In this document: piece by piece, positions 19,331 through 62,029 of the stretch
Layout: each line of letters starts with the position of its first letter
How positions within the stretch are numbered: the stretch's first letter is position 1
Assembly (NCBI GenBank): GCA_020161265.1
Contig: JAIUOC010000002.1
Coordinates: 372,001 to 436,000, forward strand
Source: Chloroflexota bacterium
GTDB lineage: Bacteria; Chloroflexota; Chloroflexia; Chloroflexales; Herpetosiphonaceae
Length of the DNA: 64,000 nt
Direction of reading: 5' to 3'
Notes under the pieces: model-generated
What the model saw: the letters and a program-made list of their open reading frames with translations, nothing else
What the model was told of the DNA's origin: nothing
Databases searched by the model: none
Translations under genes and position numbers: made by a program

Positions 19331-19396
19331 GCGGCCTCCCTGAAGTCGAACGCGAAGATGAGCCACAACAAAAGCTTGCGTATGGAGTATGTGCCT

Positions 19397-22153: not shown

Positions 22154-22160
22154 GCTACCA

Positions 22161-22190: not shown

Positions 22191-22242
22191 GTGTTTAACC
22201 TCTACTCAACTCCACAATCGCACTTTGCTTGGGGGAATCACA

Positions 22243-27603: not shown

Positions 27604-27674
27604 GCCGCCGTTGTAGCGTGAGCCTGTGCTACAGTAGCGCTTTTTTGGCTTTCAAACAATGTTTGTCAGTCAAA

Positions 27675-27728
27675 CAAACGAGCAAGGTTTTGAAAAAGCG
27701 CAAAATCTTGCTCGTTTGGCATTTTTAG
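27675..27728 (+). terminator. long terminator hairpin after glucan phosphorylase
   Basis: CAAACGAGCAAG (27675-27686) pairs with CTTGCTCGTTTG (27707-27718). An inner TTTTG/CAAAA extends it, and GCATTTTTA follows. A weaker TGTAGC/GCTACA hairpin with T6 lies at about 27612-27647. Confidence 0.85.
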
Positions 27729-27776
27729 CCCTAAACTTCGTTCGCCTGCCGATCTTTCAAGCTTGAAAACTCCCCC

Positions 27777-27805
27777 TTGACAATGATCTACTTTTGGCGT
27801 ATTGT
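27777..27805 (+). promoter_or_regulatory. promoter of the sugar transporter-amylosucrase operon
   Basis: TTGACA (27777-27782), a 17-nt spacer, TATTGT (27800-27805). The -35 is perfect and the -10 matches four of six. The -10 runs straight into a palindromic operator. It leaves a leader of roughly 250 nt before the binding-protein gene. Confidence 0.65.
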
Positions 27806-27824
27806 AATGGAAACGCTTCCATTA
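27805..27824 (+). promoter_or_regulatory. LacI-family/cre-like operator 1
   Basis: TAATGGAAAC followed by GCTTCCATTA is a 20-bp palindrome with one mismatch and the central CG typical of LacI/GalR/CcpA sites. It overlaps the transcription start region of the promoter at 27777, so a bound repressor would block initiation. Confidence 0.75.
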
Positions 27825-27938
27825 CTTCAAATACTCAATCAAGGCCAGAATCACCAGTGTTGGCCGTCAAGTGACCGTTATTCCTGTTTGCCTATAGCTC
27901 TAAATGCCTTCCCAGTGCGGGATTTTTTTATCATAATA

Positions 27939-27954
27939 ATGGAAACGTTTTCAT
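27939..27954 (+). promoter_or_regulatory. LacI-family/cre-like operator 2
   Basis: ATGGAAAC followed by GTTTTCAT, one mismatch from a perfect palindrome, shares the TGGAAACG core of operator 1. Its centre is about 132 bp from the centre of the first. It lies within the leader, allowing looping or a road-block. Flanking TATCATA/TATGATA (27930-27973) adds a wider inverted repeat. Confidence 0.7.
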
Positions 27955-28064
27955 GCAAAATTGACGTATGATATAGGAGGATTGCTCGCCGCTGCCAACC
28001 TGCCTCATCCACCCAATTTCGCTGTTAGCTTGACGTTTGGTTTAATCAATGAGGATACACCACT

Positions 28065-29390
28065 ATGCAACGACCATGGATTCGCTCGTTTACCTTGCTG
28101 ATCGGCTTAATTTTGGCGGCATGTGGCGAGGCGGCTACGCCAACCACGCCCCCGACCAACCCAACTGCGGCAACTGGCGCTAGCAGTGCGGCTAGTGGCA
28201 CGGTCACGCTGTGGTTTCACTCCGGCCAAGGCGCTGAACGCGATGCTTTGAACGCAACGCTTCAAGCATTTGCAGCCAACAACTCAGCGATCAAAGTCGA
28301 AGCAATCGAATTGCCCGAAGGCGCGTATAACGATCAAGTCAATGCTGCTGCCTTGGCTGGCGAATTGCCCTGCTTGCTCGATTTTGATGGCCCATTTGTC
28401 TATAACTATGCATGGTCGGGCTATTTGCAACCCTTGGATAGTTTGATCGCTGCCGATGTCAAAGCCGATTTCCTGCCTTCAATCATTCAACAAGGAACCT
28501 ACAATGGCAAATTGTATAGCCTTGGGCAGTTCGATTCGGGCTTAGGCTTCTATGGGAATAAAGAGTTGTTGGAAAAAGCTGGGGTGCGCATTCCAACTTT
28601 GACCCAACCATGGACTCGCGCTGAGCTTGACGAGGCCTTGAGCAAACTCAAAGCCAATGGCTTGGACTATCCGCTCGAATTGAAAATGAACTATGGCCGT
28701 GGCGAATGGTTTAGTTATGGCTTTTCACCTTTCTTGCAATCATTCGGCGGCGATTTGATCGATCGTTCAACGTATCAAAAAGCTAGTGGCACTTTGAATA
28801 GCGCGGCTTCGGTCGAAGCAATGAAGTGGTTCCAAGGTCTCTTCACCAATGGCTATGTTAATCCTAAGCCTGCTGGCGACACCGATTTCGCTGAAGGTAA
28901 AGCAGCTTTGAGCTGGGTTGGTCACTGGGCCTACCCCGATTATGCCAAAGCCTTGGGCGATAAATTGTTGGTGCTGCCTGCCGCCGATTTGGGCAAGGGC
29001 GCAAAAACGGGTATGGGTTCGTGGAATTGGGGGATTACCAGCAAGTGTGCTAATCCTGCTGCTGCCGCTGAAGTGCTTTCGTTCATCGTCTCGCCCGAAG
29101 AAGTGCTGCGCATGAGCGATGCCAATGGCGCTGTGCCCGCTCGTACTTCAGCAATTGCCAAATCCAAATTGTTTGGTGATGGCGCTCCGCTGAACCTTTA
29201 TGTGCAGCAGTTGACCAGCGGTGTTGCCGTGCCCCGCCCAATTACTCCAGCCTACCCAGTCATTACCACAGCTTTTGCCGAAGCCGTCGATAACATTGTG
29301 GCCGGAGCCGATGTGCAAGCTGAGTTGGATAAAGCGGCCCAAAAGATTGATGCCGATATTGAAGATAATCAAGGCTATCCCGTGAAGTAA
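28065..29390 (+). CDS. sugar ABC transporter substrate-binding lipoprotein
   Basis: A 441-residue extracellular binding protein of the MalE/UgpB type (SBP family 1). The lipobox LILAAC puts the lipidated Cys at residue 20, followed by a Thr/Pro/Ala linker. The domain has VTLWFHSGQGAERDAL near the start, GKLYSLGQFDSGLGFYGNKELLEKAG in the middle and a C-terminal FIVSPEEVLRM region. It binds a carbohydrate and delivers it to the permeases at 29453 and 30405. It is first in a four-gene operon that ends in amylosucrase, which points to sucrose or an alpha-glucoside as ligand. Confidence 0.92.
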   Translation: MQRPWIRSFTLLIGLILAACGEAATPTTPPTNPTAATGASSAASGTVTLWFHSGQGAERDALNATLQAFAANNSAIKVEAIELPEGAYNDQVNAAALAGELPCLLDFDGPFVYNYAWSGYLQPLDSLIAADVKADFLPSIIQQGTYNGKLYSLGQFDSGLGFYGNKELLEKAGVRIPTLTQPWTRAELDEALSKLKANGLDYPLELKMNYGRGEWFSYGFSPFLQSFGGDLIDRSTYQKASGTLNSAASVEAMKWFQGLFTNGYVNPKPAGDTDFAEGKAALSWVGHWAYPDYAKALGDKLLVLPAADLGKGAKTGMGSWNWGITSKCANPAAAAEVLSFIVSPEEVLRMSDANGAVPARTSAIAKSKLFGDGAPLNLYVQQLTSGVAVPRPITPAYPVITTAFAEAVDNIVAGADVQAELDKAAQKIDADIEDNQGYPVK

Positions 29391-29452
29391 CTGTTGATCA
29401 ACCACCAAGCCGTTGGTTTCAGCGGCTTGGTGCTTCACAAGGAGTGTGTCTG

Positions 29453-30397
29453 ATGGCTATTTCAAAATCGCAAACCGCTAGCGCCAAACCCACCACCAGC
29501 CGCCCAATGCTTAGTTGGAAACGCCGCGAACAACGGGTCGCTTGGGCGTTTGTGGCTCCGGCACTGCTGTTGCTGCTGATCTTTTTGATCGCGCCCTTTG
29601 GTTTGGCGTTTTATCTTTCGCTGACCGACCAACGCCTCGTGCCCAACCCCAACTTGCCAACGCGCTTTGTTGGCCTCAAACATTATCTGGCAATGTGGCA
29701 AGATGCGACCTTTGTCCGCGCTTTGCTGAACAATTTCTTGTTTGTGGCGGTAGTTGTGCCAGTTCAAACCAGTTTTGCCTTATTTCTGGCAGTTTTGGTC
29801 AACCAAAAAATCAAAGCAATCAACGTTTTTCGCACAATCTACTTTATTCCAGTTGTCACCATTATGGCGATTGTGGCGGTCGTTTGGACATTTCTCTACA
29901 ATCCTGATCAGGGCATTATCAACAAATTTATCCAGACGATCAGTTTTGGTCAACTTGGCCCGTATCGCTGGCTGGAAGATCCTAAATTAGCCTTTCCAGC
30001 GATTATGTTGATGTCGATCTGGCAGGGCGTTGGCTTTCAGATGGTGATTTATCTGGCGGGCTTGCAAGAAATTCCTGGCGAATTATACGAAGCAGCTCAG
30101 TTGGATGGAGCCAGTGCTTGGCAACAGTTTCGCTTTGTCACCCTGCCCCAATTGCGCAACACCTCAATTTTTGTGGTGATCTCAACCACAATTATGGCCT
30201 TCAAGCTGTTCGATCAAGTTGAGATTATGACCAAGGGCGGCCCTAACGATGCCACTGTCACTGCCATGTTGCATATTGTCAACAGCGGGTTTCGCACCCA
30301 AAAAGTTGGCTATGCCTCGGCACTTTCGGTAGTGTTTTTCGTGATTGTGTTGCTGATCTCGCTGGGCCAACGAATTTTTACCCGCTCAGAAAGGTAG
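29453..30397 (+). CDS. sugar ABC transporter permease, MalF type
   Basis: A 314-residue permease with six membrane helices. The family opening WAFVAPALLLLLIFLIAPF is followed by the cytoplasmic EAA loop YEAAQLDGASAWQQFRFVTLPQL, which contacts the ATPase. AAGGAG lies 8 nt before the ATG at 29453; a start 9 nt upstream is less likely. It pairs with the MalG-type permease 8 nt downstream. No MalK-type ATPase is in the operon, so a shared multi-use ATPase encoded elsewhere is expected. Confidence 0.92.
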   Translation: MAISKSQTASAKPTTSRPMLSWKRREQRVAWAFVAPALLLLLIFLIAPFGLAFYLSLTDQRLVPNPNLPTRFVGLKHYLAMWQDATFVRALLNNFLFVAVVVPVQTSFALFLAVLVNQKIKAINVFRTIYFIPVVTIMAIVAVVWTFLYNPDQGIINKFIQTISFGQLGPYRWLEDPKLAFPAIMLMSIWQGVGFQMVIYLAGLQEIPGELYEAAQLDGASAWQQFRFVTLPQLRNTSIFVVISTTIMAFKLFDQVEIMTKGGPNDATVTAMLHIVNSGFRTQKVGYASALSVVFFVIVLLISLGQRIFTRSER

Positions 30398-30404
30398 GTT
30401 AATC

Positions 30405-31295
30405 ATGCAACGTCCTGCAATTGAACCAACCAAGCGCTGGCAGCAAAGCTCGCGTAGATTCGGAATCTACCTGCTGATGACGGGAATCGCGCTGTTTACC
30501 CTGTTTCCCATCCTATTTATGTTGGTCACGGCGATCAAAGCCGATGAATCGCAGATTTTGCGTGAAATGAGCACATTTGCGGCATTTTTGCCAACTGGTG
30601 AGCTTTCGCTGCAAAACTTTCGCGATGTTTTTGAGCGCGTGCCATTTGCCCAATATCTAATCAATTCGGTAATTATCGCCTTGTCAATCGTGATCTGTGG
30701 GCTATTTGTCAATAGCTTGATTGCCTATGCTTTGGCTCGTATGCAATTTCGCGGCCAAAAATTGCTCTTGGCAATCGTCGTGGCATTGATTATCATTCCA
30801 TTTCAGGCAGTTGCCGTGCCTTTGCTGCTGATCGTCAATCAGTTGCCATGGTTTGATGGCCGCATGACCTGGCTCGATAGCTATCATGTGCAGATCATTC
30901 CATTTATTGCCGATGCTTTTTCGATTTTCCTGTTCTACCAGTTTTTCCTGAATATTCCCAAGGATATTGAGGAAGCGGCCTTGGTCGATGGAGCCAGCCG
31001 TTTTCGGATGTATTCGCAGATCATTGTGCCACTTTCACGCCCAGTTTTTGCGACCGTCGCCATTCTGCAATTTCTGACCCACTGGGGCGATTTCTTGTGG
31101 CCATTGATGGTGGTACGTGATCCAGCGGTGCGGCCATTGACGGTTGGTATGCAAGCCTTTTTTGGCCAAATGCCACGCCAATGGGGCGATATTATGGCCT
31201 TCGCCACGATGGTAACGCTACCAGTGCTGATTATTTTCCTGCTGTTCCAAAAATGGTTTGTCCAATCGGTGGCCTCATCAGGGGTCAAGGGCTAA
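30405..31295 (+). CDS. sugar ABC transporter permease, MalG type
   Basis: A 296-residue permease with six membrane helices (GIYLLMTGIALFTLFPILFM first). The EAA loop DIEEAALVDGASRFRMYSQIIVPL interacts with the ATPase. The C-terminus GVKG is typical of CUT1 permeases. It lies 8 nt after the MalF-type gene and 34 nt before amylosucrase, which confirms a carbohydrate uptake operon. Confidence 0.92.
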   Translation: MQRPAIEPTKRWQQSSRRFGIYLLMTGIALFTLFPILFMLVTAIKADESQILREMSTFAAFLPTGELSLQNFRDVFERVPFAQYLINSVIIALSIVICGLFVNSLIAYALARMQFRGQKLLLAIVVALIIIPFQAVAVPLLLIVNQLPWFDGRMTWLDSYHVQIIPFIADAFSIFLFYQFFLNIPKDIEEAALVDGASRFRMYSQIIVPLSRPVFATVAILQFLTHWGDFLWPLMVVRDPAVRPLTVGMQAFFGQMPRQWGDIMAFATMVTLPVLIIFLLFQKWFVQSVASSGVKG

Positions 31296-31328
31296 ACTAG
31301 CGTTATAGGCAGTATGAGGAGTGTGGTT

Positions 31329-33302
31329 ATGCAACCACTCACAGTTCAAACAATGCATTTGCCCAATCCAACCACGTTCGACAATTTGCTCGATCAACTG
31401 ATCACGAATCCGCGTGATCGCGATATTTTTCGCTTGCGCATGCAACGCCACTTTGGCGATTGCTTAGAAGCGCTAGGCGCATTGTATGCCCTGCATCCAG
31501 CTTGGACACAGTTGTTGGAGCAATTGCCCGAACGTTTGATTACTGCCTATGCCCAACGCCGCGATGCCCTGAAAATTCACGATTTAGCTCGCGAAATCCA
31601 GCCCGATTGGTTTGCTGAGGCCAAGATGGTTGGCGGCATTTACTATGTTGATTGCTTGGCAGGCACGTTGCGCGGGGTGATTGAGCATATTGATTATTTG
31701 CAGGAACTGGGTTTGACCTATGTGCATCTGATGCCGCTATTACAGCCACGCCATGGCCCCAACGATGGCGGTTATGCGGTGCTCGATTATCGCTCGATTG
31801 ATCAACGGCTTGGTAATGTGGCCGATTTTATCGAATTAAGCGATTTGCTCCGCGCCAACGGCATCAGCTTATGCATTGATGTGGTGGTGAATCACACTGC
31901 CAAAGAGCATGAATGGGCAGTTAAGGCTCGTGCCGGTGACGCTCAATATTTGGATTATTATCTGAGTTTTGCCGATCGCAGTTTGCCTGATGCCTATGAA
32001 CAACATTTACCCGAAGTGTTTCCTGATTTTGCGCCTGGTAATTTTACCTGGTATGCCGAGCTGGGCGAGCATGGTCGTTGGGTTTGGACGACCTTCAACG
32101 AATTTCAATGGGATTTGAATTATACCAACCCCATGGTTTGGCTGGAGATGCTGGATATTTTGCTGTATCTCGCCAATTTAGGCGTTGATGTCTTGCGCTT
32201 GGATGCTGTACCGTTTATGTGGAAACGCCTCAGCACGAATTGCCAAAATCAGCCCGAAGTGCTCGATCTATTGCAAGCGTGGCGAGCAGCCATGCGAATC
32301 GTCTGTCCAGCGACAATTTTCAAGGCCGAGGCAATTGTGGCCCCCGACGATTTGGTGCAATATTTGGGCTTGGGGCGGCGCACAGGCAAGCTTTGCGAAA
32401 TTGCCTACCATAATTCGCTGATGGTGTTGTTGTGGAGTGCCTTGGCCTCGCAACGCGCCGATCTGTTGACCCAATCGTTGCTGAACATGCCCGCAACGCC
32501 CAGCAATGCCGCTTGGATTACCTATGTGCGCTGCCACGATGATATTGGCTGGGCTGTGACCGACCACAATGCAGCCTTGGTTGGCGAAGATGGGCCATTG
32601 CATCGCCAATTTTTGAGTGCTTGGTATAGCGGCGAATTTGCTGGTAGTTTTGCACGGGGCGAGGTGTTTCAATACAACCCGCTCACCAACGATCGCCGAA
32701 TTAGCGGCATGACTGCCTCGTTGGCTGGGCTAGAGCAAGCCTTGGAGACCGCCGATCCAACAGCGATTGAATTGGCGATTCGCCGGATCGCGTTGCTCTA
32801 CGCCGTTATTTTTAGTTTTGGTGGCATTCCATTGATCTATATGGGCGATGAATTGGGTATGCTCAATGATCACAGCTACCTGCAGGACCCTACCAAAGCC
32901 AACGATAACCGCTGGTTGCATCGCCCAGCCATGGATTGGTGCTTGGCGGCCCAACGCCATGATCCAACTACGATTGCTGGGCGCTTATGGCAAGTGTTAC
33001 GCCATTTGATTCAGGTGCGCCAACATACTCCAGCCTTGCATAGCGCAGGCCAAACCTTGCCAATCTGGACACAGCAACGCCATGTTTTAGGGGTGGTTCG
33101 AGTTCACCCATTGGGGCGAATTTTAATTCTTGGAAACCTTTCCGCAAAGCCGCAGCGGGTTAGTTTAGCGGTTATCCAACAGGCAGGCCTCGTTGGACGC
33201 TTATATGATTTGTTGGATGAAAAAGAACTTAATATTGATACTGAAAGCCATGAAATCGTACTTGATAGTTACCAATGCTGCTGGCTTAGTACCCAAGCTT
33301 AA
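31329..33302 (+). CDS. amylosucrase (GH13 subfamily 4)
   Basis: Transglucosidase that builds alpha-1,4-glucan from sucrose and releases fructose. The 657 residues align along the whole length with the Neisseria polysaccharea type: GGIYYVDCLAGTLRG, NDGGYAVLDYRS, VVVNHTAKEHEW, WVWTTFNEFQWDLNY, the nucleophile Asp in DVLRLDAVPF, acid/base Glu in IFKAEAIV, and VRCHDDIGW. QYNPLTNDRRISG and LIYMGDEL follow. GAGGAG lies 7 nt before the ATG at 31329; an ATG 15 nt upstream overlaps that SD. No secretion signal, so it acts on imported sugar. It can also have sucrose hydrolase activity. Confidence 0.94.
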   Translation: MQPLTVQTMHLPNPTTFDNLLDQLITNPRDRDIFRLRMQRHFGDCLEALGALYALHPAWTQLLEQLPERLITAYAQRRDALKIHDLAREIQPDWFAEAKMVGGIYYVDCLAGTLRGVIEHIDYLQELGLTYVHLMPLLQPRHGPNDGGYAVLDYRSIDQRLGNVADFIELSDLLRANGISLCIDVVVNHTAKEHEWAVKARAGDAQYLDYYLSFADRSLPDAYEQHLPEVFPDFAPGNFTWYAELGEHGRWVWTTFNEFQWDLNYTNPMVWLEMLDILLYLANLGVDVLRLDAVPFMWKRLSTNCQNQPEVLDLLQAWRAAMRIVCPATIFKAEAIVAPDDLVQYLGLGRRTGKLCEIAYHNSLMVLLWSALASQRADLLTQSLLNMPATPSNAAWITYVRCHDDIGWAVTDHNAALVGEDGPLHRQFLSAWYSGEFAGSFARGEVFQYNPLTNDRRISGMTASLAGLEQALETADPTAIELAIRRIALLYAVIFSFGGIPLIYMGDELGMLNDHSYLQDPTKANDNRWLHRPAMDWCLAAQRHDPTTIAGRLWQVLRHLIQVRQHTPALHSAGQTLPIWTQQRHVLGVVRVHPLGRILILGNLSAKPQRVSLAVIQQAGLVGRLYDLLDEKELNIDTESHEIVLDSYQCCWLSTQA

Positions 33303-33406
33303 ACTTTCTCAAATCAAAAGATTAAGCTTCCGGTAACGATTGCAGTCCTCAATTGGATCAAGTATAGTTGCGCTATCCCTGTTCTTTTTTCAGAAGGAGC
33401 GCAACG

Positions 33407-35590
33407 ATGCGAAATGTTCAATTACGCATGCTCTTGCTTGTTGGGCTATTGGCGGGCTTGAGCACTGGGGTCTGGCTGCGACGACCAGCGGCCTATGCCG
33501 TGCCTAGCGCTACCAGCCAAACCCTACCGCCACCAGCGCGGGTCGCGGTGACAACTCGTAGTTTCAACAACGCTCGCACTGGCACAACCGCCGCCGAGCA
33601 ACTACTAGCCCCAACCAATGTTATGTCTACCACCTTTGGTAAATTGTTCAGCCGCACAGTTGACGGCCAGATCTACGCTCAACCGTTGTATGTGCCCGAT
33701 TTGAACATGCCCGGGGTTGGCACTCGCAACGTCGTATTTGTTGCAACTCAAAAAAACAACGTTTACGCCTTCGATGCTGACGATCCAGCGATGAGCCAGC
33801 CATTGTGGTCGCTCAACCTTGGGCCATACGCGATTAGCAATTTAAAAGAATTTGGCACGCGCTATAATGGCGGCGTGTACCAAGATATCAAGCCCTACGT
33901 TGGGATTACCGGCTCGCCAGTGATCGATCCGGCCACCAACACGCTCTATGTTGTACCATTTATCCGCCTAGGAGCCTATCAATATCAACATCGTATGATT
34001 GCGATTAATATTTTGGATGGCACACTTATTCAATCCACCACGATCCAAGGCTCAGTGCCAGGTGATGGCAACGATGCTAATCCCAATGATGGAATTGTCG
34101 TATTCGATAGCCGCCAGCATTTGCAACGTTCTTCATTGCTGCTTGACGGCAATCGGGTGTATGTGGCATTTGCTGGCTATGCCGACACCGATCCTTACCA
34201 TGGTTGGGTCTTTGGCTACAACAAAACGACCCTGCAACAAGAATTGATCTACAACACAACGCCGCAAAAAGAAGTTACTTCGCAGCCCAACGCCGCCAAT
34301 GATGGCGAAGGTGGTATCTGGATGAGCGGGCAAGGCCTTACCAGCGATGGTCAAGGCAATTTGTATCTTTCGATTGGCAACGGCAGTTGGAACGCCAATT
34401 TGCCCAATGGCCGCGATTATGGCTCGTCGGTCAACAAATTGAATGTCACTAATCCACTCTCGCCAACCGTTGAAACATGGTTTACGCCTTACGATTATAA
34501 AACCCTCAACACCAACGACACCGACCTAGGCACAACTGGCGCGGTCTTAATTCCCAATACCAATGTGATGATCGCTGGCAGTAAGGGCGGCAAAATCTAT
34601 GTCTTCAATCGCAATGATATGGGTGGTCTAGGGGTTCAGCAAGGCACAACTGGCTTTGATAAAACTGTGCCCGGCAAGTTCTATCAAAGCTTCAAACCCC
34701 ATGGTGGCTCGGGCTTTCGTGGAATTTTTGGCACACCAGTGGTTTGGGCAGCTGGTGGGGCAACCGGCACTCGCATGTTTGTTTGGCCAGTCAATTCGCC
34801 GTTGAAAGCTTTTCAATTTAGCACGACGCAGCCATTGACCCCAAGTTTTAATACCACGCCTGTAGCCACCAGCACCTTGCAAACCGTGACGATGCCTGGT
34901 GGTGTGATGTCGTTATCGTGGAATGGCAGCAACGCCAATACCGGAATCGTTTGGGCAACCCACTCGACTGGCGGCAGCGCCAATACCACCACCCAGCCCG
35001 GGGTTATTCATGCCTATAACGCCTTGACCTTGCAAGAAACCTGGAATAGCAACCAAAACGCTACCCGCGACGCGATGGGCAATTTGGCCAAATTCAATAC
35101 CCCATTAATTGCTGATGGTAAAGTCATCGTTGGCACATTCTCAGTCGATAGCATCACCAACACCGATAAATTGGTGGTGTATGGTCATTTAGCTCCGCGA
35201 ATTGTGCGCGAACCAGTTGATACTACGGTTGCTTTTGGCCAAAATGCTAGCGTCAATGTAACCGCAACTGGCGCGGCAAATCTCAGTTATCAATGGTATC
35301 GTGGCACAACTGGCGACACCAGTAACCCAATCAGTGGTGCAACAATGCCAAGTTTAACCTTGACCAATGTCCAAACCAATAGCCAAGTTTGGGTGCGCGT
35401 CGCCAATCAGCAAGGCAATGTAAATAGCATTACCGCTAGCGTGATGGTGACCAATATTCCAACCAACACGCCGACAATTACGCCAACACCGAGCAACACA
35501 CCGACCCCCAGCAATACCCCAACGCCAAGCAACACGCCAGTTGTTAGCCAATGGAAGGTTTGGTTACCAATGGCAATGCGAGGTCAATAA
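33407..35590 (+). CDS. secreted PQQ-like beta-propeller protein with Ig-like domain and C-terminal tail motif
   Basis: A 727-residue exported protein. Signal peptide MRNVQLRMLLLVGLLAGLST ends near Tyr/Ala at about 31. Residues about 50-600 form a quinoprotein-like propeller (NVVFVATQKNNVYAFDADDP and ITGSPVIDPATNTLYVVPF). An Ig-like domain follows at about 602-690 (SYQWYRGTTGDTSNPISGA). Then a TPTPSNTPTPSNTPT stalk leads to the tail WKVWLPMAMRGQ. The tail, one short hydrophobic strand with Pro and terminal basics, matches those of three other secreted proteins in this window. AAGGAG lies 7 nt before the ATG. It probably sits at the cell surface. Whether it binds PQQ is unknown. Confidence 0.87.
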   Translation: MRNVQLRMLLLVGLLAGLSTGVWLRRPAAYAVPSATSQTLPPPARVAVTTRSFNNARTGTTAAEQLLAPTNVMSTTFGKLFSRTVDGQIYAQPLYVPDLNMPGVGTRNVVFVATQKNNVYAFDADDPAMSQPLWSLNLGPYAISNLKEFGTRYNGGVYQDIKPYVGITGSPVIDPATNTLYVVPFIRLGAYQYQHRMIAINILDGTLIQSTTIQGSVPGDGNDANPNDGIVVFDSRQHLQRSSLLLDGNRVYVAFAGYADTDPYHGWVFGYNKTTLQQELIYNTTPQKEVTSQPNAANDGEGGIWMSGQGLTSDGQGNLYLSIGNGSWNANLPNGRDYGSSVNKLNVTNPLSPTVETWFTPYDYKTLNTNDTDLGTTGAVLIPNTNVMIAGSKGGKIYVFNRNDMGGLGVQQGTTGFDKTVPGKFYQSFKPHGGSGFRGIFGTPVVWAAGGATGTRMFVWPVNSPLKAFQFSTTQPLTPSFNTTPVATSTLQTVTMPGGVMSLSWNGSNANTGIVWATHSTGGSANTTTQPGVIHAYNALTLQETWNSNQNATRDAMGNLAKFNTPLIADGKVIVGTFSVDSITNTDKLVVYGHLAPRIVREPVDTTVAFGQNASVNVTATGAANLSYQWYRGTTGDTSNPISGATMPSLTLTNVQTNSQVWVRVANQQGNVNSITASVMVTNIPTNTPTITPTPSNTPTPSNTPTPSNTPVVSQWKVWLPMAMRGQ

Positions 35591-36384
35591 TGCTGATTGA
35601 TCGTCAACTAGCGGCCCAACTTGAGGCTGCTGATGCGCATAATTTGCGTCAATATACCGCTGCGGTAGCCAACATTGTGCCTACAAGCCAGGCAACCTGG
35701 GCGCAGATTGGCGATGCAACAGCTTGCTACACTGGCCCCGACTTACCGATTAATCGGGCGGTTGGGGCTGGCAGCCAACAGCCTTGGGATGCACAACAAT
35801 TTGCTGCATTAGAAGATTTTTATCGGCAACGTCAACTAGCAGTTAGCCTCGAACTAACCCCATTCAGCGATCCGAGTCTGTCAACACTGTTGAGCCAGCG
35901 CAATTACCGAATTATTCGTTGGTGGAGTGTGCTAGCCTTTGACATGCTGCGTTATACCCCTTTTAGCCCAAGTAGTGTACAATCGCGGATGATCGCACCT
36001 GAACAGCCCGAACTATGGGTTGAAGCTATGACCAACCATGGCCAAAGTAGCCCGATGGGCATCACGATGGCCAGGGCTGCCGCCGCCCGATCGGATAGCC
36101 AGCTTTTTGGAGCGTGGCTTGAAGATCAACTGATTGGTTGTGGCGCATTAAGCATTAATGCCGAAGTTGCCACGCTGTTTTCAACCTTTGTCAAGCCAGA
36201 TTGGCGACGGCGCGGAGCACAAACCAGCCTGATTGCAGCACGTTTAGCTTATGCTCAGGCCCAAGGTTGTCGTTGGGCAACCGTGCTAACCATTAGTGGG
36301 AGCGATTCGCAACGGATTGTAACGCGAGCTGGTTTTGAGCTTGCCTACAATAAAGTGACGCTAGAAGAGCAACGAGGATCGTAG
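35590..36384 (+). CDS. GNAT-family N-acetyltransferase
   Basis: A 264-residue protein. The ATG overlaps the preceding stop (TAATG). The N-terminal half (1-150) is a divergent, possibly degenerate GNAT-like domain. The C-terminal half has the acetyl-CoA motif A KPDWRRRGAQTSLIAARLAYA and a following VLTISGSDSQRIVTRAGF strand-helix. Substrate is not predictable; coupling to the secreted propeller gene may just reflect compact layout. Confidence 0.8.
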   Translation: MLIDRQLAAQLEAADAHNLRQYTAAVANIVPTSQATWAQIGDATACYTGPDLPINRAVGAGSQQPWDAQQFAALEDFYRQRQLAVSLELTPFSDPSLSTLLSQRNYRIIRWWSVLAFDMLRYTPFSPSSVQSRMIAPEQPELWVEAMTNHGQSSPMGITMARAAAARSDSQLFGAWLEDQLIGCGALSINAEVATLFSTFVKPDWRRRGAQTSLIAARLAYAQAQGCRWATVLTISGSDSQRIVTRAGFELAYNKVTLEEQRGS

Positions 36385-36410
36385 ACAATCTATCTAGGAG
36401 GAAGCTGCAC

Positions 36411-37010
36411 ATGTATCGTGTGGAATCGGTAGCGGAACGACAAACCTTGGCCGACCTGATTCGTGGCAAATCACTGGGTCGTGATCTTGCGCTGATTATC
36501 GGGTTTAGTTTGTTTGTTGCCCTCACCGCTCAAATTGCTATTCCGTTGCCTTGGACTCCCGTGCCAATTACGGGCCAGACCTTGGGGGTGTTGCTGACGG
36601 GGGCGATTTTGGGGCCACGTCGTGGCGCTTTGGCGATTTTGCTTTATCTGGTCGAGGGCTTGGCTGGAATGCCTGTCTTTGCTGGCATGACCAGCGGCTT
36701 GGCTAAATTGCTCGGCCCAACTGGTGGGTATCTCCTGTCGTGGCCATTGGCCGCAGCTTTGGTGGGCTGGTTGGCTCAACGTGGCTGGGATCGGCGGATT
36801 CCAACCGCTTTGGCGATGTTTTGTTTTGGCAATATCTTGATCTACGCGATCGGTGCATCGTGGCTAAACATCTACAAAGATACGTTTGGTCAAATCAGCG
36901 TGATGTGGGCGGGGGTTTATCCCTTCTTGCCTGGTGATGCTTTGAAGATTGTGATTGCGGCCTTGGTATTACCTGGGGCGTGGGCGCTATTCGGGCGCAA
37001 CGAACGCTAA
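36411..37010 (+). CDS. bioY: biotin transporter BioY
   Basis: S-component of an ECF-type biotin transporter. The 199-residue protein has six membrane helices and the BioY signatures QIAIPLPWTPVPITGQT, GAILGPRRGALAILLYL and GMPVFAGMTSGLAKLLGPTGGYL. AGGAGG precedes the ATG at 36411. No EcfA/T genes are adjacent, so it uses shared energising subunits or works alone. A hairpin follows. Confidence 0.95.
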   Translation: MYRVESVAERQTLADLIRGKSLGRDLALIIGFSLFVALTAQIAIPLPWTPVPITGQTLGVLLTGAILGPRRGALAILLYLVEGLAGMPVFAGMTSGLAKLLGPTGGYLLSWPLAAALVGWLAQRGWDRRIPTALAMFCFGNILIYAIGASWLNIYKDTFGQISVMWAGVYPFLPGDALKIVIAALVLPGAWALFGRNER

Positions 37011-37028
37011 ACTTGTTTGGCTAAACCA

Positions 37029-37059
37029 CAACACGGCTGAAATTGCTTCAGCCGTGTTG
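37029..37059. terminator. bidirectional hairpin between bioY and a convergent small gene
   Basis: CAACACGGCTGAA pairs with TTCAGCCGTGTTG, 13 bp with a 5-nt loop, followed by GCATTT on the plus strand. It lies 18 nt after the bioY stop and 4 nt beyond the stop of the minus-strand gene at 37064. Confidence 0.8.
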
Positions 37060-37063
37060 GCAT

Positions 37064-37312
37064 TTAACCGCGTCGGAACATGCCGAAGAAACTGCTTTTT
37101 GGTTGGAGCTTGTGCATCAGCATCAGCCGATATTGGCCCCAATCGCCTGGATCACGCTCGATCCGCAAATCGTAGTGATGATTGATAAAGACTGGACCAT
37201 ATTCGTTGTTGGCCGATTGGGATAAGCCGCGTTTTGTGCCTTCCTCTTTAAGTCGCTCGACAAGTGGTGCAAGCTCTACGCCTTGCATCAAGATTTCACG
37301 CTTCACGTTCAT
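37064..37312 (-). CDS. small protein of unknown function
   Basis: An 82-residue soluble protein. The ATG at 37312 is chosen for AAGGAG 8 nt upstream (MNVKREILMQGVELAPLVER). It contains a short beta-rich part (EYGPVFINHHYDLRIERDPG, then GQYRLMLMHKL) and a basic, Phe-rich C-terminus (SSFFGMFRRG). I do not recognise it. It is convergent with bioY. Confidence 0.65.
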   Translation of the reverse strand: MNVKREILMQGVELAPLVERLKEEGTKRGLSQSANNEYGPVFINHHYDLRIERDPGDWGQYRLMLMHKLQPKSSFFGMFRRG

Positions 37313-37681
37313 CTCAGTAACTCCTTGGGTATGTAGATATCGTTGAATTAATAATGTCATGTGGGTTTTATCCTATCATGCTGTGCAAGAGCTATGCCAT
37401 AAGCCATGTGTCCTACACAACGATAGGGCGTAGTAGAAAGGAGGAATTATGAGGGAGGAAAGCTGAAGTTTTAACCACGAAGGACACGAAGAGGCACGAA
37501 GGGAGCTGATTAACGACTGGTTTTGTAGGAGCTAAATCGATTCAGACAGCTGTAGGAATATGATCTGGGTAATCTGTGGCTAAAAATGGCCTTGGCGTTC
37601 TTCGCGCTCTTCGCGGTTCCAATCCTTTGTGCCCTTCATGGATCAAAAATCTGGCTTAATCCCTATGTTCTATGCTCTATT
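37313..37681. other. repeat-bearing intergenic gap
   Basis: Contains AACCACGAAGGACACGAAGA followed by GGCACGAAGG (about 37473-37502), TTCTTCGCGCTCTTCGCGG (about 37598-37616) and CCTTTGTGCCCTTCATGGAT (about 37623-37642). All are variants of dispersed words also found at 3752, 12062, 25206 and 39971. No gene is seen. Confidence 0.6.
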
Positions 37682-38074
37682 TTATGCATGTTGTTGGCCA
37701 CGCAAGGGTGGCCCAGCAGCTTGCAATTCGGAATATTCGGCATCGCTAAATACTCGTGAACGAGTTAAAAAGCGCAAGCCTTCAGGCGCTTCGACCGAAA
37801 AGCCGCTACCACGACCTTTGACCACATCGATGATTAATTGGGTATGTTGCCAATATTCAAATTGCGGCCCGCTGATATAAAATGGGCAGCCTGCAATCTC
37901 GCCAAGATACACATCGTACTGACCGATTCGAAATTCTTGGCGGGGGTAGCACATTGGGGCACTGCCATCGCAGCAGCCACCCGATTGATGAAATAATAAT
38001 GGGCCATGCAATTGGCTGAGTTTAGCAACCAAGGCTTCAGTTTGTTCGGTTGCCAGCACACGTTCAACCGTCAT
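37682..38074 (-). CDS. DUF779 family protein, aldehyde dehydrogenase companion
   Basis: A 130-residue protein of the DUF779 family, habitually encoded next to AldB/ExaC-type acetaldehyde dehydrogenases. It shows the hallmark HQSGGCCDGSAPMCYP with its Cys-Cys pair, a later FYISGPQFEYWQHTQLIIDV and VEAPEGLRFLTRSRVF. The Cys-rich block suggests a metal or thiol role; the function is undefined. It lies downstream of the dehydrogenase at 38155 but is separated by a strong terminator, so it may have its own promoter or arise by read-through. Confidence 0.9.
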   Translation of the reverse strand: MTVERVLATEQTEALVAKLSQLHGPLLFHQSGGCCDGSAPMCYPRQEFRIGQYDVYLGEIAGCPFYISGPQFEYWQHTQLIIDVVKGRGSGFSVEAPEGLRFLTRSRVFSDAEYSELQAAGPPLRGQQHA

Positions 38075-38092
38075 GATCCAACTCCTTGTTGA

Positions 38093-38131
38093 GATAAAAA
38101 CACTACCGCAAGCAGCAAACCTGCGGTAGTG
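38093..38131 (-). terminator. terminator after the aldehyde dehydrogenase
   Basis: CACTACCGCA (38101-38110) pairs with TGCGGTAGTG (38122-38131). On the minus strand five T follow. It lies 24 nt past the dehydrogenase stop. Confidence 0.88.
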
Positions 38132-38154
38132 TGACGTTTGGAAGCACCAATCAA

Positions 38155-39675
38155 CTAAAAGAAGCCCATTGGATTGGGATCGTAGCTGACCAACAGGTTT
38201 TTAACTTGTTGATAATGGTTAAGCATCATCTTATGGTTTTCGCGGCCAATCCCCGATTGTTTGTAGCCACCAAACGCAGCATGGGCTGGATACAAGTGGT
38301 AGCAGTTAGTCCAAACGCGACCTGCTTGGATGGCGCGACCCATACGATAGGCTGTGTTCATATCGCGTGTCCACAAACCAGCGCCTAGGCCATACAAGGT
38401 ATCATTGGCAATACTCAAGGCATCGTCAAAATCATCGAACGAAGTTACCGAAACAACTGGCCCGAAAATTTCTTCTTGGAAAATGCGCATGCGGTTGTTG
38501 CCAGCAAAGATCGTCGGCTGAATGTAATAGCCTTCGGCTAAATCGCCGCTGAGTTCGGCTTTAGCCCCACCAACCAGCACTTTAGCCCCTTCGTCGCGGC
38601 CAATCGCCAAATACGACAAAATTTTCTCAAATTGATCGTTAGAGGCTTGTGCACCCACCATGGTGGCAGGATCAAGCGGGTTGCCCTGAATGCAGCGTTT
38701 GGTGCGTTCGACCGCTCGCTCTAAAAACTCACCATAGATTGATTTTTGAATTAATGCCCGTGATGGGCAGGTACAAACTTCACCTTGGTTCAAGGCAAAC
38801 ATGGTAAAGCCTTCGAGCGCTTTATCAACAAACGCATCTTGCTTGCTCAAAACATCCTCGAAGAAGATGTTGGGCGATTTACCACCAAGCTCTAAGGTCA
38901 CAGGAATGATATTTTCTGAGGCATATTGCATAATCAAACGGCCTGTGGTGGTTTCGCCAGTGAAGGCTATTTTGGCGATCCGATTGCTGCTGGCCAATGG
39001 CTTGCCTGCTTCAATCCCAAAGCCATTGACCACATTGACCACGCCCGCTGGAATCAAATCGCCAATCAATTCCATCAAGACCAAAATTGTGCTGGGCGTT
39101 TGCTCGGCGGGCTTGAGTACCACACAATTGCCAGCAGCGAGGGCTGGAGCCAATTTCCAAGTTGCCATCAACAGCGGGAAATTCCACGGAATAATTTGGC
39201 CCACCACACCCAGCGGTTCATAAAAATGATAGGCAATCGTATTTTCGTCGATTGTGGCCGCACTGCCTTCTTGCGCCCGAATCACTCCAGCAAAATAGCG
39301 GAAGTGATCGATCGCTAGCGGTAAATCGGCGGCGAGCGTTTCGCGCACAGGCTTGCCATTTTCCCATGTTTCGGCGACCGCCAACATCTCTAAGTTGGCT
39401 TCCATGCGGTCGGCAATCTTATTCAGAATATTGGCACGTTGGGCAGGTGAGGTTGCACCCCAAGCAGCTTTGGCAGCATGGGCCGCATCGAGCGCTTTTT
39501 CGATGTCTTCGGCGGTCGAACGAGGAATTTCGCAGAACGGCTTGCCATTAACTGGGCTGATATTTTCAAAATACATGCCCTTGACTGGCTCAACAAACTC
39601 GCCATTGATGTAGTTGCCATACCGTGACTTAAAACTGACTTTACTGCCCGGCTGATTGGGATTGGTGTAGACCAC
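38155..39675 (-). CDS. NAD-dependent acetaldehyde/aldehyde dehydrogenase (AldB/ExaC type)
   Basis: A 506-residue ALDH oxidising short aldehydes to acids with NAD(P). The GTG start at 39675 has GGAGG 5 nt upstream and gives the usual N-terminus and length. An upstream in-frame ATG would add 27 unlikely residues. Catalytic features are [21 protein letters not shown], the Glu in [10 protein letters not shown] and the nucleophile Cys in [26 protein letters not shown] follows. With DUF779 nearby it fits acetaldehyde removal during alcohol oxidation or general aldehyde detoxification. Confidence 0.93.
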
Positions 39676-40107
39676 AGTGTCCTCCAATAAGCATGTTTCA
39701 AGCTTGGGCCAAAATGAGTGGGGGAATGTTTCAAACCAGAGGTGAAGCGTTTCCAAACGTCGTGCCTGTTATGATATCACAAAATAGAACATAGAACATA
39801 GTGTTGAGTGGGCAGGGATCAGGGGCTAGGGATCAGGGGTCAGATACATTTTAATTAACGCAGAGGCGCAGAGAGCGAAGGATGCAGGATGAAGGCAAAA
39901 AGGTCGGAGCGAGCAATCAAGCATTGGGCATAGGAGAATAATCATAGCAATCTGTGGCAAAAAACTTAACTTCGCGATCTTCGTGTTCTTAGCGGTTTCA
40001 GTTCTTCGTCGATCAACATTCATATATTCTATGTTCTTTGCGCTTACTTTTGCATAATTACTGCAAATCGGCTAGCATAGAGCGCTGATTATTGTAGGAG
40101 TTTGGGT
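39676..40107. other. repeat-rich intergenic gap
   Basis: A 432-bp gap between divergent genes. It has AATAGAACATAGAACATAG, then GGGATCAGGGGCTAGGGAT and another CAGGGGTCAG (about 39783-39842), ACGCAGAGGCGCAGAGAG (39860-39877), GAAGGATGCAGGATGAAGG (39879-39897) and a CTTCGCGATCTTCGTGTTCTT stretch from 39971. It also has TTGCATAATT and ACTGCAAAT near 40050-40065, which may hold the promoter of the gene at 40108. No gene is seen. Confidence 0.6.
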
Positions 40108-56793: not shown

Positions 56794-57963
56794 TTATCGG
56801 TTTTTGACGAACGGAATAAAGAGTTTATAGGGTAGACCATCGTGTACTTGCACATTAATGGGATTACGGGCGCTCGTATAACCAAACGTCCAGCGATCAC
56901 CAATAAGCAACTCGCCGAAGGCTTGGCCATTGATTGTTAATATCCCCGGAGCCATCGCCCGTAATGTAATCGCTGAACACTGGGTCGGATGTTCAGAATA
57001 GCGACATGGCATGGTCAATGGTGGATCAAACTGGGCCAACTCGCTTGCACTAAGCGTGATTTCCATTTGAGGTCCGCTGATATTCTGATAATCGACGGTC
57101 ATGGTAAAAATATCGCCAACCTGGACTTGGCTTGGGGCACTCAACAGCAACTTAGGTGCTGCTGCTGGTTGACAAGGCACAGGGGTGATGATCGGTGTAG
57201 AACTCGGCGATGGGGTTTGGGTTAAATCAGGAACTCGCTGACCAACGACGGTTGGTGTAGATGTATAGGTTGGCTGGACTGTGACCGTAGGCGTTAATGT
57301 GGCAGGCACACAAGTTGGGGTTGGCACTGGTGTGCCATTTGGATCAATAACATTAATCGTCAGCGGAGTTCGTGCCGCTGCTGAGCTCCAATACCAACCA
57401 TTATGAAACGATTCACCTCGTGCATCAGCATTGATAACCAAGGTACCAACGCTAGTAGCTCGCAACGTAATACGCTCACAGCGGGTTGGGTGGCGATCAT
57501 ATTGACATGGCATGAGTAGTGGTGGGTCGAATCGCGCCAAATTCGCATCATTAAACCAGATTCGCGTGTGTTGCATACCAATATTTTCATAGGTAATCGA
57601 TAAAGTGAATAATTCGCCAACATTAACTTGGCTTGGTCCGTTGAGAAATAATGTCGGATGCACATAGCAAGGATCGACATTGGGTGTTGGAACTGGGGTT
57701 CGGGTTGGAGTTAAGTTTGGTATATGCGCCTGAACGCTACTCTCGAGTGGATAGTAGGTTGGACAGATAACACTCGGTGTCGTGGTAGTAGTATTAGTTG
57801 GTGATGGTACTATAGTACTACTTGTTGCAATGGGAATTTCGCTTGGGGTTGGGGTTTCAGTTAATCCTACTTTGGCACTTGTTGATCCAGGGTTTTTAGC
57901 GACAGCAAAAGCAAATAACACTGCACATAAACCAACTAACAAAGCCAGCCGCCTGTTACTCAT
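56794..57963 (-). CDS. secreted Cys-pair repeat protein A (tandem paralog family)
   Basis: A 389-residue exported protein with signal MSNRRLALLVGLCAVLFAFAVA. It has two copies of a beta-rich domain of about 105 residues (about 105-210 and 275-375), each with APSQV-like or GPSQV-like opening, VGE/VGD, a conserved Cys pair (MPC-x8-9-C) and a closing Asn-Pro-Ile-type strand. Copies are joined by Pro/Thr/Val linkers. The C-terminus ends YKLFIPFVKNR. The Cys pair probably makes a disulfide outside the cell. No known enzyme motif. It is the first of three tandem paralogs read from the right-hand side of the window leftwards, and it has an upstream element at 58024. Confidence 0.82.
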   Translation of the reverse strand: MSNRRLALLVGLCAVLFAFAVAKNPGSTSAKVGLTETPTPSEIPIATSSTIVPSPTNTTTTTPSVICPTYYPLESSVQAHIPNLTPTRTPVPTPNVDPCYVHPTLFLNGPSQVNVGELFTLSITYENIGMQHTRIWFNDANLARFDPPLLMPCQYDRHPTRCERITLRATSVGTLVINADARGESFHNGWYWSSAAARTPLTINVIDPNGTPVPTPTCVPATLTPTVTVQPTYTSTPTVVGQRVPDLTQTPSPSSTPIITPVPCQPAAAPKLLLSAPSQVQVGDIFTMTVDYQNISGPQMEITLSASELAQFDPPLTMPCRYSEHPTQCSAITLRAMAPGILTINGQAFGELLIGDRWTFGYTSARNPINVQVHDGLPYKLFIPFVKNR

Positions 57964-58023: not shown

Positions 58024-58050
58024 GCTTGCTATAGGACTAATGGCCCAAAA
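58024..58050 (-). promoter_or_regulatory. conserved upstream element, copy A
   Basis: The core TGCTATAGGACTAATGGCCC is shared with copies B and C. It sits 61-87 nt upstream of the paralog A start. It may be a promoter or regulator site. Confidence 0.5.
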
Positions 58051-58279: not shown

Positions 58280-60067
58280 TTATTGGGTTTTGACGAACGG
58301 AATAAAGGCTTTGTGGGCTAAAACGCTGCGCACTTGCACATTAATAGGATTCCGTGCATGAGCACTGCCCCAAGCCCAACCACCACCAGAAATTGGTACT
58401 TCGCCATTTGCTCCGGCATTAATTGTAATCGTACCAGGCGCAACCGCCCGCAAACCAATCGTGCGGCAATGGGTTGGGTGCTGGTTGAATTTACATGGCA
58501 TCGTCAATGGTGGATCGAATTGGACAGTTCCGGTTGGGCTGAGTGTGATTCCAGTATACGGCACGCCAATATTGACATACTGAATTGTCAAACTGAATGC
58601 ATCACCAACATTGACCAATGGCGGCGCACTCAAAATCAATTCTGAAACAATTGGCGTAATGGTCGGACTACCACGGTTTGGCGTGATCGTTGGGGTTCCG
58701 ATACACGTGCTACCACGCATCGCCAAGTTGGTTGGGCATGGAGTCGCTGTTTTAGTAGTCGTTGGGGTTGGCGTGCACGGCACTTGGGTTGTTTGCACGC
58801 GATTGCTATTCAATGGTTGAGCGGTTGGCGTGAAACATGGTGCCGTTGGGAAGGTCGGCGTTGCGGTTGAAGTTGGCGTTGGCGTACACGGCGCTTGGGT
58901 TACTTGGGGTGCTTGCTTCTGAGTTGGCCGTGTGGTTGGCGTATAGCATGGATAGCTTGGGAAGGTTGGAGTTGGCGTGCCAGTCTTCGTTGGGGTTGGG
59001 GTTGGCGTACATGGTACTCGGGTCGTTTGCACACCATTGCTATTTAATGGTTGTGGCGTTGGCGTGAAACATGGCGCAGTTGGGAAGGTCGGGGTTGGCG
59101 TAAAGGTGGGTGTGCCATCACCCGCCACAATATTTACATACACAGGATTACGTGCCCGTGCCCCACCCCACATCCAGCCGCCATCAATAAACAATTCACC
59201 AGTTGCCCAGGCATCAATCGTTAATTCACCGACGGCAGTTGCCCGCAAACGAATTTGGGTACAATGGGTTGGATCTTCGAAGAAATCGCAGGGTATGACT
59301 GATGGCGCTTCAATTTGGGCCAAGCCATTGGGGCTGAGGCTAATGCCAGTATCTGGCGCACCAATATTCACATAATCAATCGTTAGCGTAAAGACATCGC
59401 CAACTCGGACTTGGCTTGGGGCACTCAACAGCAACTCGGCATATGAGGCTTGTTGGCATGGCAGAGCTGTTGGTGTTGGTGTGCGAGTTTTGGTTGGAGT
59501 TGGCGTGGCTGTCGCCTGACCTGCTGGAGTTGGGGTATAGGTTGGCAACATCGTAGCCGTTGGGGTTCGGGTCGCAGGCACACAGGTTGGCATAGGAGTT
59601 GGCGTGGCCGTCGCATTCGGATCAACGACATTGATCCAAATTGGATTACGCGCTTGGGCACTGCCCCAAGCCCAACCACCGCCAGCAATCGGCACTTCGC
59701 CTGTTGCCGATGCAGAAATTTCTAACATTCCCTCAGCCGTTGCCCGTAATGTAATTGCACGACAACCTGTCGAATGTTCATTGTACTTACAGGGCATCGT
59801 CATCGGTGGATCAAATTGAGCCAGATTGTTCGGACTCATGGTGATCGTGGTGTAGGGCAGACCAATATTGACATACTGAATCATGATCACGAACAGTTCA
59901 CCGACTTGGACTTCGGTCGGGCCGCTCAGAATTAATTCTGAACGAATGGGCGTTGGAGTTGGCGTTAATAACGCCTTGGCACTTGTTACTTCAGGTCGTT
60001 TAGCCACAGCAAAGCCAAGCAACACTGCACACAAGCTCACTAACAGGGCCAGCCGCCTGTTATTCAT
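58280..60067 (-). CDS. secreted Cys-pair repeat protein B with long Pro/Thr/Cys stalk
   Basis: A 595-residue exported protein with signal MNNRRLALLVSLCAVLLGF. Three copies of the Cys-pair domain lie at about 45-150, 205-315 and 480-585. The long linker before the third (about 315-470) is Pro/Thr rich with repeated Cys-containing units of about 37-41 residues (see the repeat feature). The C-terminus ends HKAFIPFVKTQ. The third domain is nearly identical in DNA to the third domain of the neighbouring copy C, indicating recent duplication or conversion. It looks like an extended surface stalk-and-bead protein; ligand unknown. Confidence 0.83.
   Translation of the reverse strand: MNNRRLALLVSLCAVLLGFAVAKRPEVTSAKALLTPTPTPIRSELILSGPTEVQVGELFVIMIQYVNIGLPYTTITMSPNNLAQFDPPMTMPCKYNEHSTGCRAITLRATAEGMLEISASATGEVPIAGGGWAWGSAQARNPIWINVVDPNATATPTPMPTCVPATRTPTATMLPTYTPTPAGQATATPTPTKTRTPTPTALPCQQASYAELLLSAPSQVRVGDVFTLTIDYVNIGAPDTGISLSPNGLAQIEAPSVIPCDFFEDPTHCTQIRLRATAVGELTIDAWATGELFIDGGWMWGGARARNPVYVNIVAGDGTPTFTPTPTFPTAPCFTPTPQPLNSNGVQTTRVPCTPTPTPTKTGTPTPTFPSYPCYTPTTRPTQKQAPQVTQAPCTPTPTSTATPTFPTAPCFTPTAQPLNSNRVQTTQVPCTPTPTTTKTATPCPTNLAMRGSTCIGTPTITPNRGSPTITPIVSELILSAPPLVNVGDAFSLTIQYVNIGVPYTGITLSPTGTVQFDPPLTMPCKFNQHPTHCRTIGLRAVAPGTITINAGANGEVPISGGGWAWGSAHARNPINVQVRSVLAHKAFIPFVKTQ
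58765..59101 (-). repeat. tandem stalk repeats inside protein B
   Basis: Three Cys-containing units begin at about 58771, 58882 and 59005 (periods 111 and 123 bp, or 37 and 41 codons). Units 1 and 3 share words such as CTATTCAATGGTTG or CTATTTAATGGTTG and GAAACATGG. They code for Pro/Thr-rich stalk with one or two Cys each. Confidence 0.75.
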
Positions 60068-60132: not shown

Positions 60133-60158
60133 CCTGCTATAGGACAAATGGCCCAAAA
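60133..60158 (-). promoter_or_regulatory. conserved upstream element, copy B
   Basis: The core CTGCTATAGGACAAATGGCC sits 66-91 nt upstream of the paralog B start. Downstream AT-rich words (TAGCAATATAGATAT) are also shared with copy C. Confidence 0.5.
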
Positions 60159-60289: not shown

Positions 60290-61939
60290 TTATTTTCTCG
60301 CCAGCGGAATAAAAATCCGATATGCTAACACGTCGCGCACTTGAATCGAAATTGGGTTTGAAATAGCACTGCCCCAAGCCCAACCACCACCAGCAATTGG
60401 CACTTCACCTGTAGCGCTAGCACTAAGGTGAAGCGAGCCTGCGGCAATTGCCCGCAACCGAATAGTGCGACACTGGGTTGGATGCTGATTGAATTTGCAT
60501 GGCATGGTCAATGGTGGATCAAATTGCCCAATTCCACCTGACCCATTGGTGACCCTCGTATAGGGCATCCCAATATTGATATACTGGATCGTCAGGGTAA
60601 AAACATCACCAACATTGACCAGGTATGGCGCACTCAAAAACAAGCCTGAAACAATCGGCGTAGCCGTTGCAGTGCCATTGATTGGTGTGATAGTTGGGGT
60701 TCCGCTACAGCTACCGCCGTTGATTGCTAAGTTCGTTGGGCATGGCGTAGCAGTTTTGGTAGCGGTCGGGGTTGAAGTACGGGTTGGTATGGCATTGTTT
60801 GGCAGAATATTGATATGAACTGGATTGCGAGCATACGCATATCCATCCTCCGCCTGTTGACCATTAATGAAAACCAAGCCAAAAGCACTAGCATCGATCG
60901 TTAATTCACCTGCGGAAGTCGCCCGCATGGTTATTTCTTCACACGAAGTAGGGTGCGAGAATCGTTGGCAAGGCATTGCTAGCGGCGGATCAAACATCGC
61001 TAAATCATTCGAGGCGCGGCTAATATCGATGGTATAAGGGGCAATATTCACATAACTCATTCTCAACGTAAAAATATCGCCAACCTGCACTTGGCTTGGT
61101 GCCTGTAACACCAACTCGGCATATGAGGTTTGGTAGCATGTCAAGGGGGCAGCAGTTGGGGTTGGAGTACGGGTTTGAATTGGGGTCGAAGTGGCTGTCG
61201 CCTAACCAGCCAGGGTTGGCGTATTTGTCGGTATATTTGGGGTTGGAGTGCTGGTAGCAGGTACGCAGGTTGGCACAGGCGTAAAGGTTGAAGTTGGCGT
61301 TGAATTCCAATCAATAATATTAATAAAAACTGGGGCTTGGGCTTCAACCCAAATGAAGTGCCAATTACCATTGTAATAAGCTTCGCCTAATGCCACGGCA
61401 TCAAAATTAAAAACCCCTACATTAGTAGCTCGTAGGGTAAAACTACGACACTGGGTGCTATGGTATTCAGCAATACAATACTCATTCATTGCTGGCTCAA
61501 AATGGGCTAAACCGCCATCATTAACCCAAAGCGAGGTTGAGGGTAAGGCTAGATTGATATACTCAATTGAGATGGTGAATAGCTCGCCAACCTCGACCTG
61601 ACTTGGTGCTGTGATAATCACCTTTGGCTCGACAAAACAGGGATCATTTGGAGTTGCAGTAAAGGTTGGCCTTTCGGTCACTGTTGGCTGCTGCCCAGTA
61701 GGAGTTGCAGTAGCATTTGGTCGAATTCCTTGGGTTGGTGTTGGCAGATTTACCGCGCAGGTTGGACCAACTGGTGCGGTTGGGGCCATCGTACTACGCG
61801 TAACAAGTGAATCAATACTTTGATTATGGGTTGAGGGTAATAATCCGTTGGCGTTGATTACTTCGGAGCGTTTAGCCATAGCAAAGCCAAGCAATATCGT
61901 GCACAAGCATACGAACAGGATTAACTGCCTATTATTCAT
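60290..61939 (-). pseudogene. secreted Cys-pair repeat protein C, interrupted by one in-frame amber codon
   Basis: The reading frame of 549 codons runs from ATG 61939 (signal MNNRQLILFVCLCTILLGF) to the stop at 60290, except for TAG at 61204-61202. The frame is open on both sides. Paralog B has CAG at the matching place (GQATAT in B, G-stop-ATAT in C), so a C-to-T change is the likely cause. The N-terminal 245 codons code for one Cys-pair domain; the rest codes for two more and a tail ending YRIFIPLARK. Outcomes could be a broken gene, read-through, or two products. The sequence does not decide. Confidence 0.8.
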
Positions 61940-62003: not shown

Positions 62004-62029
62004 CCTGCTATAGGATAAATGGTCTATTA
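62004..62029 (-). promoter_or_regulatory. conserved upstream element, copy C
   Basis: CCTGCTATAGGATAAATGG (62004-62022) with GTCTATTA after it matches copies A and B. It is 65-90 nt upstream of the paralog C start. Confidence 0.5.

Follow-up and report, generated by a model that had tools for sequence, protein, structure and literature searches.

A tandem array with one interrupted copy

The window, the whole stretch of 64,000 nucleotides that was analyzed, corresponds to positions 372001 to 436000 of contig 2 of a 6.04-Mb genome (13 contigs, 99.98% complete), whose source is, as judged from sequence, a Herpetosiphon close to H. aurantiacus. It contains a tandem array of three paralogous genes, A, B, and C, of which C is the third copy (Table 1). 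The minus-strand frame of gene C, read from 61939 to 60290, comprises 550 triplets, namely, 548 sense codons, one internal TAG, and the terminal TAA. The internal TAG, at 61204-61202, is codon 246 of the 549 that precede the terminal stop, and the frame carries no frameshift. An earlier note on this DNA had described a lone TAG at this site in an otherwise open 549-codon frame, with CAG in the same context of paralog B; our count and position agree, and the CAG is indeed found at 59508-59524 (minus strand), where B reads GCAGGTCAGGCGACAGC and gene C reads GCTGGTTAGGCGACAGC (61194-61210, minus strand). In codons, this is GGT-CAG-GCG-ACA in paralog B versus GGT-TAG-GCG-ACA in gene C. One substitution would turn 127 of the 548 sense codons of gene C into a stop, and 24 sense codons are CAG, CAA, or CGA, which become stops by a C-to-T change.

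Table 1. Positions of gene C, its parts, and its paralogs in the window
Feature	Position	Strand	Remarks
Gene C, ancestral frame	60290..61939	-	Secreted protein with three Ig-like domains; one TAG inside
5' open frame	61202..61939	-	245 aa; signal peptide, Pro/Thr linker, first beta-sandwich domain, part of next linker; likely product
In-frame amber codon TAG	61202..61204	-	Codon 246; CAG in DSM 785 ortholog and paralog B
3' part	60290..61201	-	303 sense codons after TAG; domains 2 and 3, conserved C-terminal tail
Predicted beta-sandwich domain 1	61307..61630	-	Mapped from DSM 785 residues 100-207
Low-confidence (disordered) Pro/Thr-rich linker, domains 1-2	61118..61300	-	Holds the TAG; from DSM 785 residues 210-270
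Predicted beta-sandwich domain 2	60800..61120	-	Mapped from DSM 785 residues 270-376
Predicted beta-sandwich domain 3	60332..60646	-	Mapped from DSM 785 residues 428-532
C-terminal tail YRIFIPLARK	60293..60322	-	Conserved across paralogs; lost from truncated product
Paralog B	58280..60067	-	Intact, 595 aa
Paralog A	56794..57963	-	Intact, 389 aa
Element TCCTATAGCA upstream of C	62006..62015	-	Intact; also 60135-60144 (B) and 58027-58036 (A)

The upstream region, ribosome-binding site, and signal peptide of gene C are all intact. The element TCCTATAGCA occurs three times in the window, once ahead of each of A, B, and C, where 0.06 occurrences are expected. It lies about 65 to 80 bases upstream of each gene, within a longer similar stretch, and is kept in H. 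aurantiacus DSM 785, which makes it a candidate for a common promoter or regulator site. Downstream of the TAG, a TTG-initiated frame of 284 aa starts at 61144. No purine-rich stretch that might serve as a Shine-Dalgarno sequence is apparent before this TTG (ccccaactgctgcccc), the ATG that follows, at 61060, falls within domain 2, and the 3' part has no signal peptide.

Predicted structure and family

A model of the DSM 785 protein was obtained with AlphaFold2 from a 9-row alignment (mean pLDDT 54.6, with the domain cores at about 70 to 85). The predicted fold consists of an N-terminal hydrophobic helix, a signal peptide by sequence, followed by three beta-sandwich domains separated by disordered Pro/Thr linkers. 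Residues with pLDDT below 50 number 226 of the 545, so that the linkers make up about 40% of the protein. The glutamine at the position of the stop is residue 242, which the model places within the linker between domains 1 and 2.

Searches of Pfam, NCBIfam, and PDB sequences returned no family above cut-off; the best Pfam match, to a BatD/DUF11-like domain, scored 17.8 bits against a curated cut-off of 24.1 and is a resemblance only. Foldseek, run with the three-domain model (mean pLDDT as above), found nothing more specific than generic Ig/beta-sandwich proteins (TM-scores, about 0.1 to 0.4) and named no function. The domain shared by A, B, and C is also present between the GH10 xylanase catalytic domain and the CBM2 of a predicted xylanase elsewhere in the same genome (L081:5908-7878, contig C12). 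From this arrangement, an accessory, surface- or polymer-binding role would be a reasonable guess.

The proteins A, B, and C share a short C-terminal tail with the pattern aromatic-[IL]-P-x-x-x-[KR], encoded at 56797-56826, 58283-58312, and 60293-60322, respectively (all minus strand). Similar tails are seen on an unrelated 740-aa protein of the window that also has Pro/Thr linkers (WKVWLPMAMRGQ; 35560-35590, plus strand) and on a large multidomain secreted protein of 2186 aa (L080; YVYIPYVINR). The shared tail is possibly a sorting or anchoring signal; a literature search for a C-terminal sorting tail in Chloroflexi gave nothing relevant.

Comparison with H. aurantiacus DSM 785 and the genus

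In a collection of 84,980 species genomes, an ortholog of gene C was found in DSM 785 (CP000875.1) alone. It lies at the same locus, between paralog B and an ABC-transporter gene, and the genes flanking the locus are 93 to 96% identical in DNA between the two genomes. The ortholog is a single intact frame of 545 aa with CAG at the position of the stop, and its amino acid identity to gene C is 84% upstream and 92% downstream of the TAG; the continuous frame of gene C is therefore not a chance one. A tblastn search with the DSM 785 protein covered the whole frame in the window and met exactly one stop. Over the 1650 columns of the DNA alignment all differences are in frame, including a single length difference of 12 bases in the 5' half, and the 303 codons of the 3' part align without an indel. 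The TAG is the only disabling difference. These results bear out the view of the earlier note that the flanking frames keep their coding character and that domain order and the C-terminal tail persist past the stop. The note had left open whether close relatives carry CAG or TAG, which DSM 785 answers with CAG, and had considered that relatives might hold several disabling changes, of which the DSM 785 ortholog has none.

Of the five other Herpetosiphon genomes compared, four lack the ortholog and have one or two family members at the locus; in G004, for example, B is the sole member and is separated from the ABC gene by about 150 bases. Across the genus the array thus numbers one to three copies between the same two flanking genes, one encoding a HIT-type protein and the other the ABC gene. 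The TAG does not recur at this codon in the other genomes compared: DSM 785 reads CAG there, and gene C is missing from the remaining four Herpetosiphon genomes. Because both the DSM 785 ortholog and paralog B have a sense codon at this position, the TAG is most likely a derived, lineage-specific nonsense change. With the TAG in one genome and the ortholog in one other, its direction and age rest on these two sequences plus paralog B.

Across the window more widely, positions 12209 to 25172 are inverted relative to DSM 785, and positions 25173 to 40101 have no good counterpart in the 78-kb DSM 785 region compared. Among the 38 window genes with a counterpart in that region, gene C alone has an internal stop. 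In the published annotation of DSM 785, 82 of 5,654 genes (1.5%) are listed as pseudogenes (PMC3368417). Gauged against this background, which consists of the 38 genes and the published count, one broken gene in 38 fits an ordinary rate and is unremarkable. A second frame that appeared damaged, with two stops at 16065-16700, proved to be the antisense shadow of an intact 207-aa gene.

Constraint on either side of the stop

The two parts of gene C have the same pairwise dN/dS against DSM 785, 0.27, both before the stop (Nd 48.2, Sd 50.8) and after it (Nd 25.5, Sd 30.5); the corresponding values are 0.33 for paralog A, 0.12 for paralog B, and 0.02 to 0.06 for conserved neighbors. Had the 3' part drifted for the whole branch of its lineage, a dN/dS of about 0.6 would be expected. 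With paralog A or the 5' part of C itself as the reference, neutral drift over the whole branch is disfavored about 50- to 60-fold, and the neutral fraction of the branch has a posterior median of about 0.2, with 95% of the posterior below about 0.6. The age bound depends on the reference rate chosen: with the more conserved paralog B the likelihood ratio is 1.8, the age is almost unconstrained, and the data hardly discriminate. Since constraint downstream equals constraint upstream, the nonsense mutation is probably young; the same undiminished constraint is equally expected from readthrough or from an assembly error.

The 5' half of gene C (61205-61939, minus strand) has an unusually high dS relative to DSM 785, 0.355 versus 0.15 to 0.27 for its neighbors, or roughly double the value of most of them, and this may reflect recombination or conversion among family members.

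Decoding of UAG

TAG terminates 8 of the 38 compared genes, and the genome encodes release factor 1 (RF1; 480.6 bits). Of the 56 Rfam tRNA matches checked with ARAGORN, two were oversized and unreadable by that program, and none of the others has a CTA anticodon; these matches come from the 150 candidates, of 244, that Rfam scored, and their list lacks a few standard isotypes (e.g., Ile-GAT). A genome-wide scan for a CTA anticodon loop with a T-loop downstream, a pattern that would miss tRNAs with unusual T-loops, gave three matches and no CTA tRNA: one match is tRNA-Arg(tct), another falls in the D-loop of tRNA-Gln(ttg), and the third is not a tRNA. A tRNA-Gln with anticodon TTG is present. 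With RF1 encoded, UAG in use as a normal terminator, and no CTA tRNA found in these searches, reassignment of the code and a dedicated suppressor tRNA are not supported.

Elsewhere in the genome (C1), three neighboring tRNA-like genes (1093755-1093886, 1094039-1094178, and 1094348-1094455; L073, L093, and L067) have good acceptor, D, and T arms and about 40 to 70 extra bases in the anticodon arm. Two of them are listed by Rfam, both unreadable by ARAGORN. The first is 95 to 96% conserved in two other Herpetosiphon genomes, and the differences between copies in the acceptor stem include a change on both sides of a pair (C-G to T-A). The three genes may represent tRNAs with introns or a family of tRNA-derived RNAs.

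Origin and fate of the interrupted gene

Taken together, the intact syntenic ortholog with CAG, the single lesion, and the undiminished constraint downstream make it probable that gene C suffered a recent nonsense substitution, leaving a secreted one-domain stub as its product; among the options listed in the earlier note, a very young pseudogene is the best supported. A single substitution on the lineage of this genome, later than its divergence from H. aurantiacus DSM 785, would have changed a glutamine codon in the first interdomain linker to TAG. RF1 would be expected to end translation there, yielding a secreted protein of 245 residues with a single domain; domains 2 and 3 would be lost together with the conserved tail, and what follows the stop would be a very young pseudogene remnant. 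The direction of the change, its recency, the fate of the product, and the dispensability of gene C are what we infer from these comparisons. Copies of the array appear to be dispensable over time, given the redundancy of the paralogs, the turnover between one and three copies, and the absence of C from four of the five other genomes.

Several other explanations were weighed against a recent loss. That the strain really carries CAG and the TAG is an error of sequencing or assembly is unlikely. A single substitution in a gene that is otherwise intact and constrained would look like this, and the motif shared with paralog B makes mis-mapping between copies conceivable; cross-mapping from B would, however, bring in CAG rather than TAG, the assembly is nearly complete in few contigs, and no other compared gene in the window has an internal stop. 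The earlier note had grouped a sequencing error with a phase-varying state, and the latter is disfavored, because the change is a substitution and not slippage of a repeat. We regard partial readthrough as quite unlikely: here the near-cognate tRNA-Gln (TTG), or another tRNA, would read UAG at a low level and give a mixture of one-domain and full-length protein. The unrelaxed downstream constraint and the presence of this tRNA would suit such a mechanism, and alternation of TAG and CAG in bacterial orthologs with dN/dS below 1 has been read in this way before (PMC7918605); yet in-frame stops are mostly short-lived according to the same study, so that recency alone suffices, and UAG is an ordinary terminator in a genome with RF1 and no CTA tRNA found. 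The suppressor tRNA that the earlier note had proposed to look for was sought in the searches described above and not detected.

It is very unlikely that the truncated form is a selected, functional short secreted variant. The stop falls in a disordered linker past a complete predicted domain, and everything needed upstream for expression and export (the upstream region, ribosome-binding site, and signal peptide) is intact, but nothing points to the truncation having been selected, the tail is retained in the other intact members of the family, and a stop within a linker is not surprising when low-confidence linker makes up so much of the protein. A reversible switch between CAG and TAG, at the level of the population or of translation, that tunes export of the full-length, tail-bearing form versus the one-domain form, is highly improbable. 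A truly split gene, with the 3' part translated on its own, is the least credible reading and is given almost no weight; the TTG-initiated frame is available for it, but nothing resembling a Shine-Dalgarno sequence precedes it, its product would lack a signal peptide, and in the sister species the gene is a single fused one, so that this option of the earlier note is disfavored. Besides an assembly error and low-level readthrough, a polymorphic allele is a remaining alternative for the TAG.

Relation to known systems

The probable recent nonsense change in gene C looks like ordinary gene decay, one more recent nonsense allele in a fast-turnover secreted family of a soil-type, predatory bacterium. 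It is a clean case of a stop caught soon after its origin, with an intact sister copy available for comparison.

Within the Herpetosiphon Ig/DUF11-like secreted family (A, B, and a copy on contig 3), gene C shares the signal peptide, the Thr/Pro-linked beta-sandwich domains, and the tail x-F-I-P-x-x-K, and differs in being the sole interrupted member; in the xylanase the domain is present and the tail is not. Systems of readthrough or amber suppression (pyrrolysine, suppressor tRNA) resemble gene C in the open frame that continues past the UAG. Unlike them, its genome has no detected suppressor tRNA, encodes RF1, and uses UAG as a normal stop, and the ortholog has a sense codon. In-frame TAG/CAG stops in bacterial orthologs with dN/dS below 1 have been documented and are mostly short-lived (Belinky et al. 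2021, PMC7918605). Gene C fits this pattern in that TAG and CAG face each other at a single codon while the rest of the gene is under constraint, although that study required stops common to at least two species and the TAG of gene C is in one genome only. Closest are young pseudogenes with a single nonsense change, as in lineage-specific gene decay of bacteria: the derived nonsense substitution, the intact sister ortholog, the absence of further lesions, and the presence of paralogs are all found in gene C, and among the features compared there is no difference.
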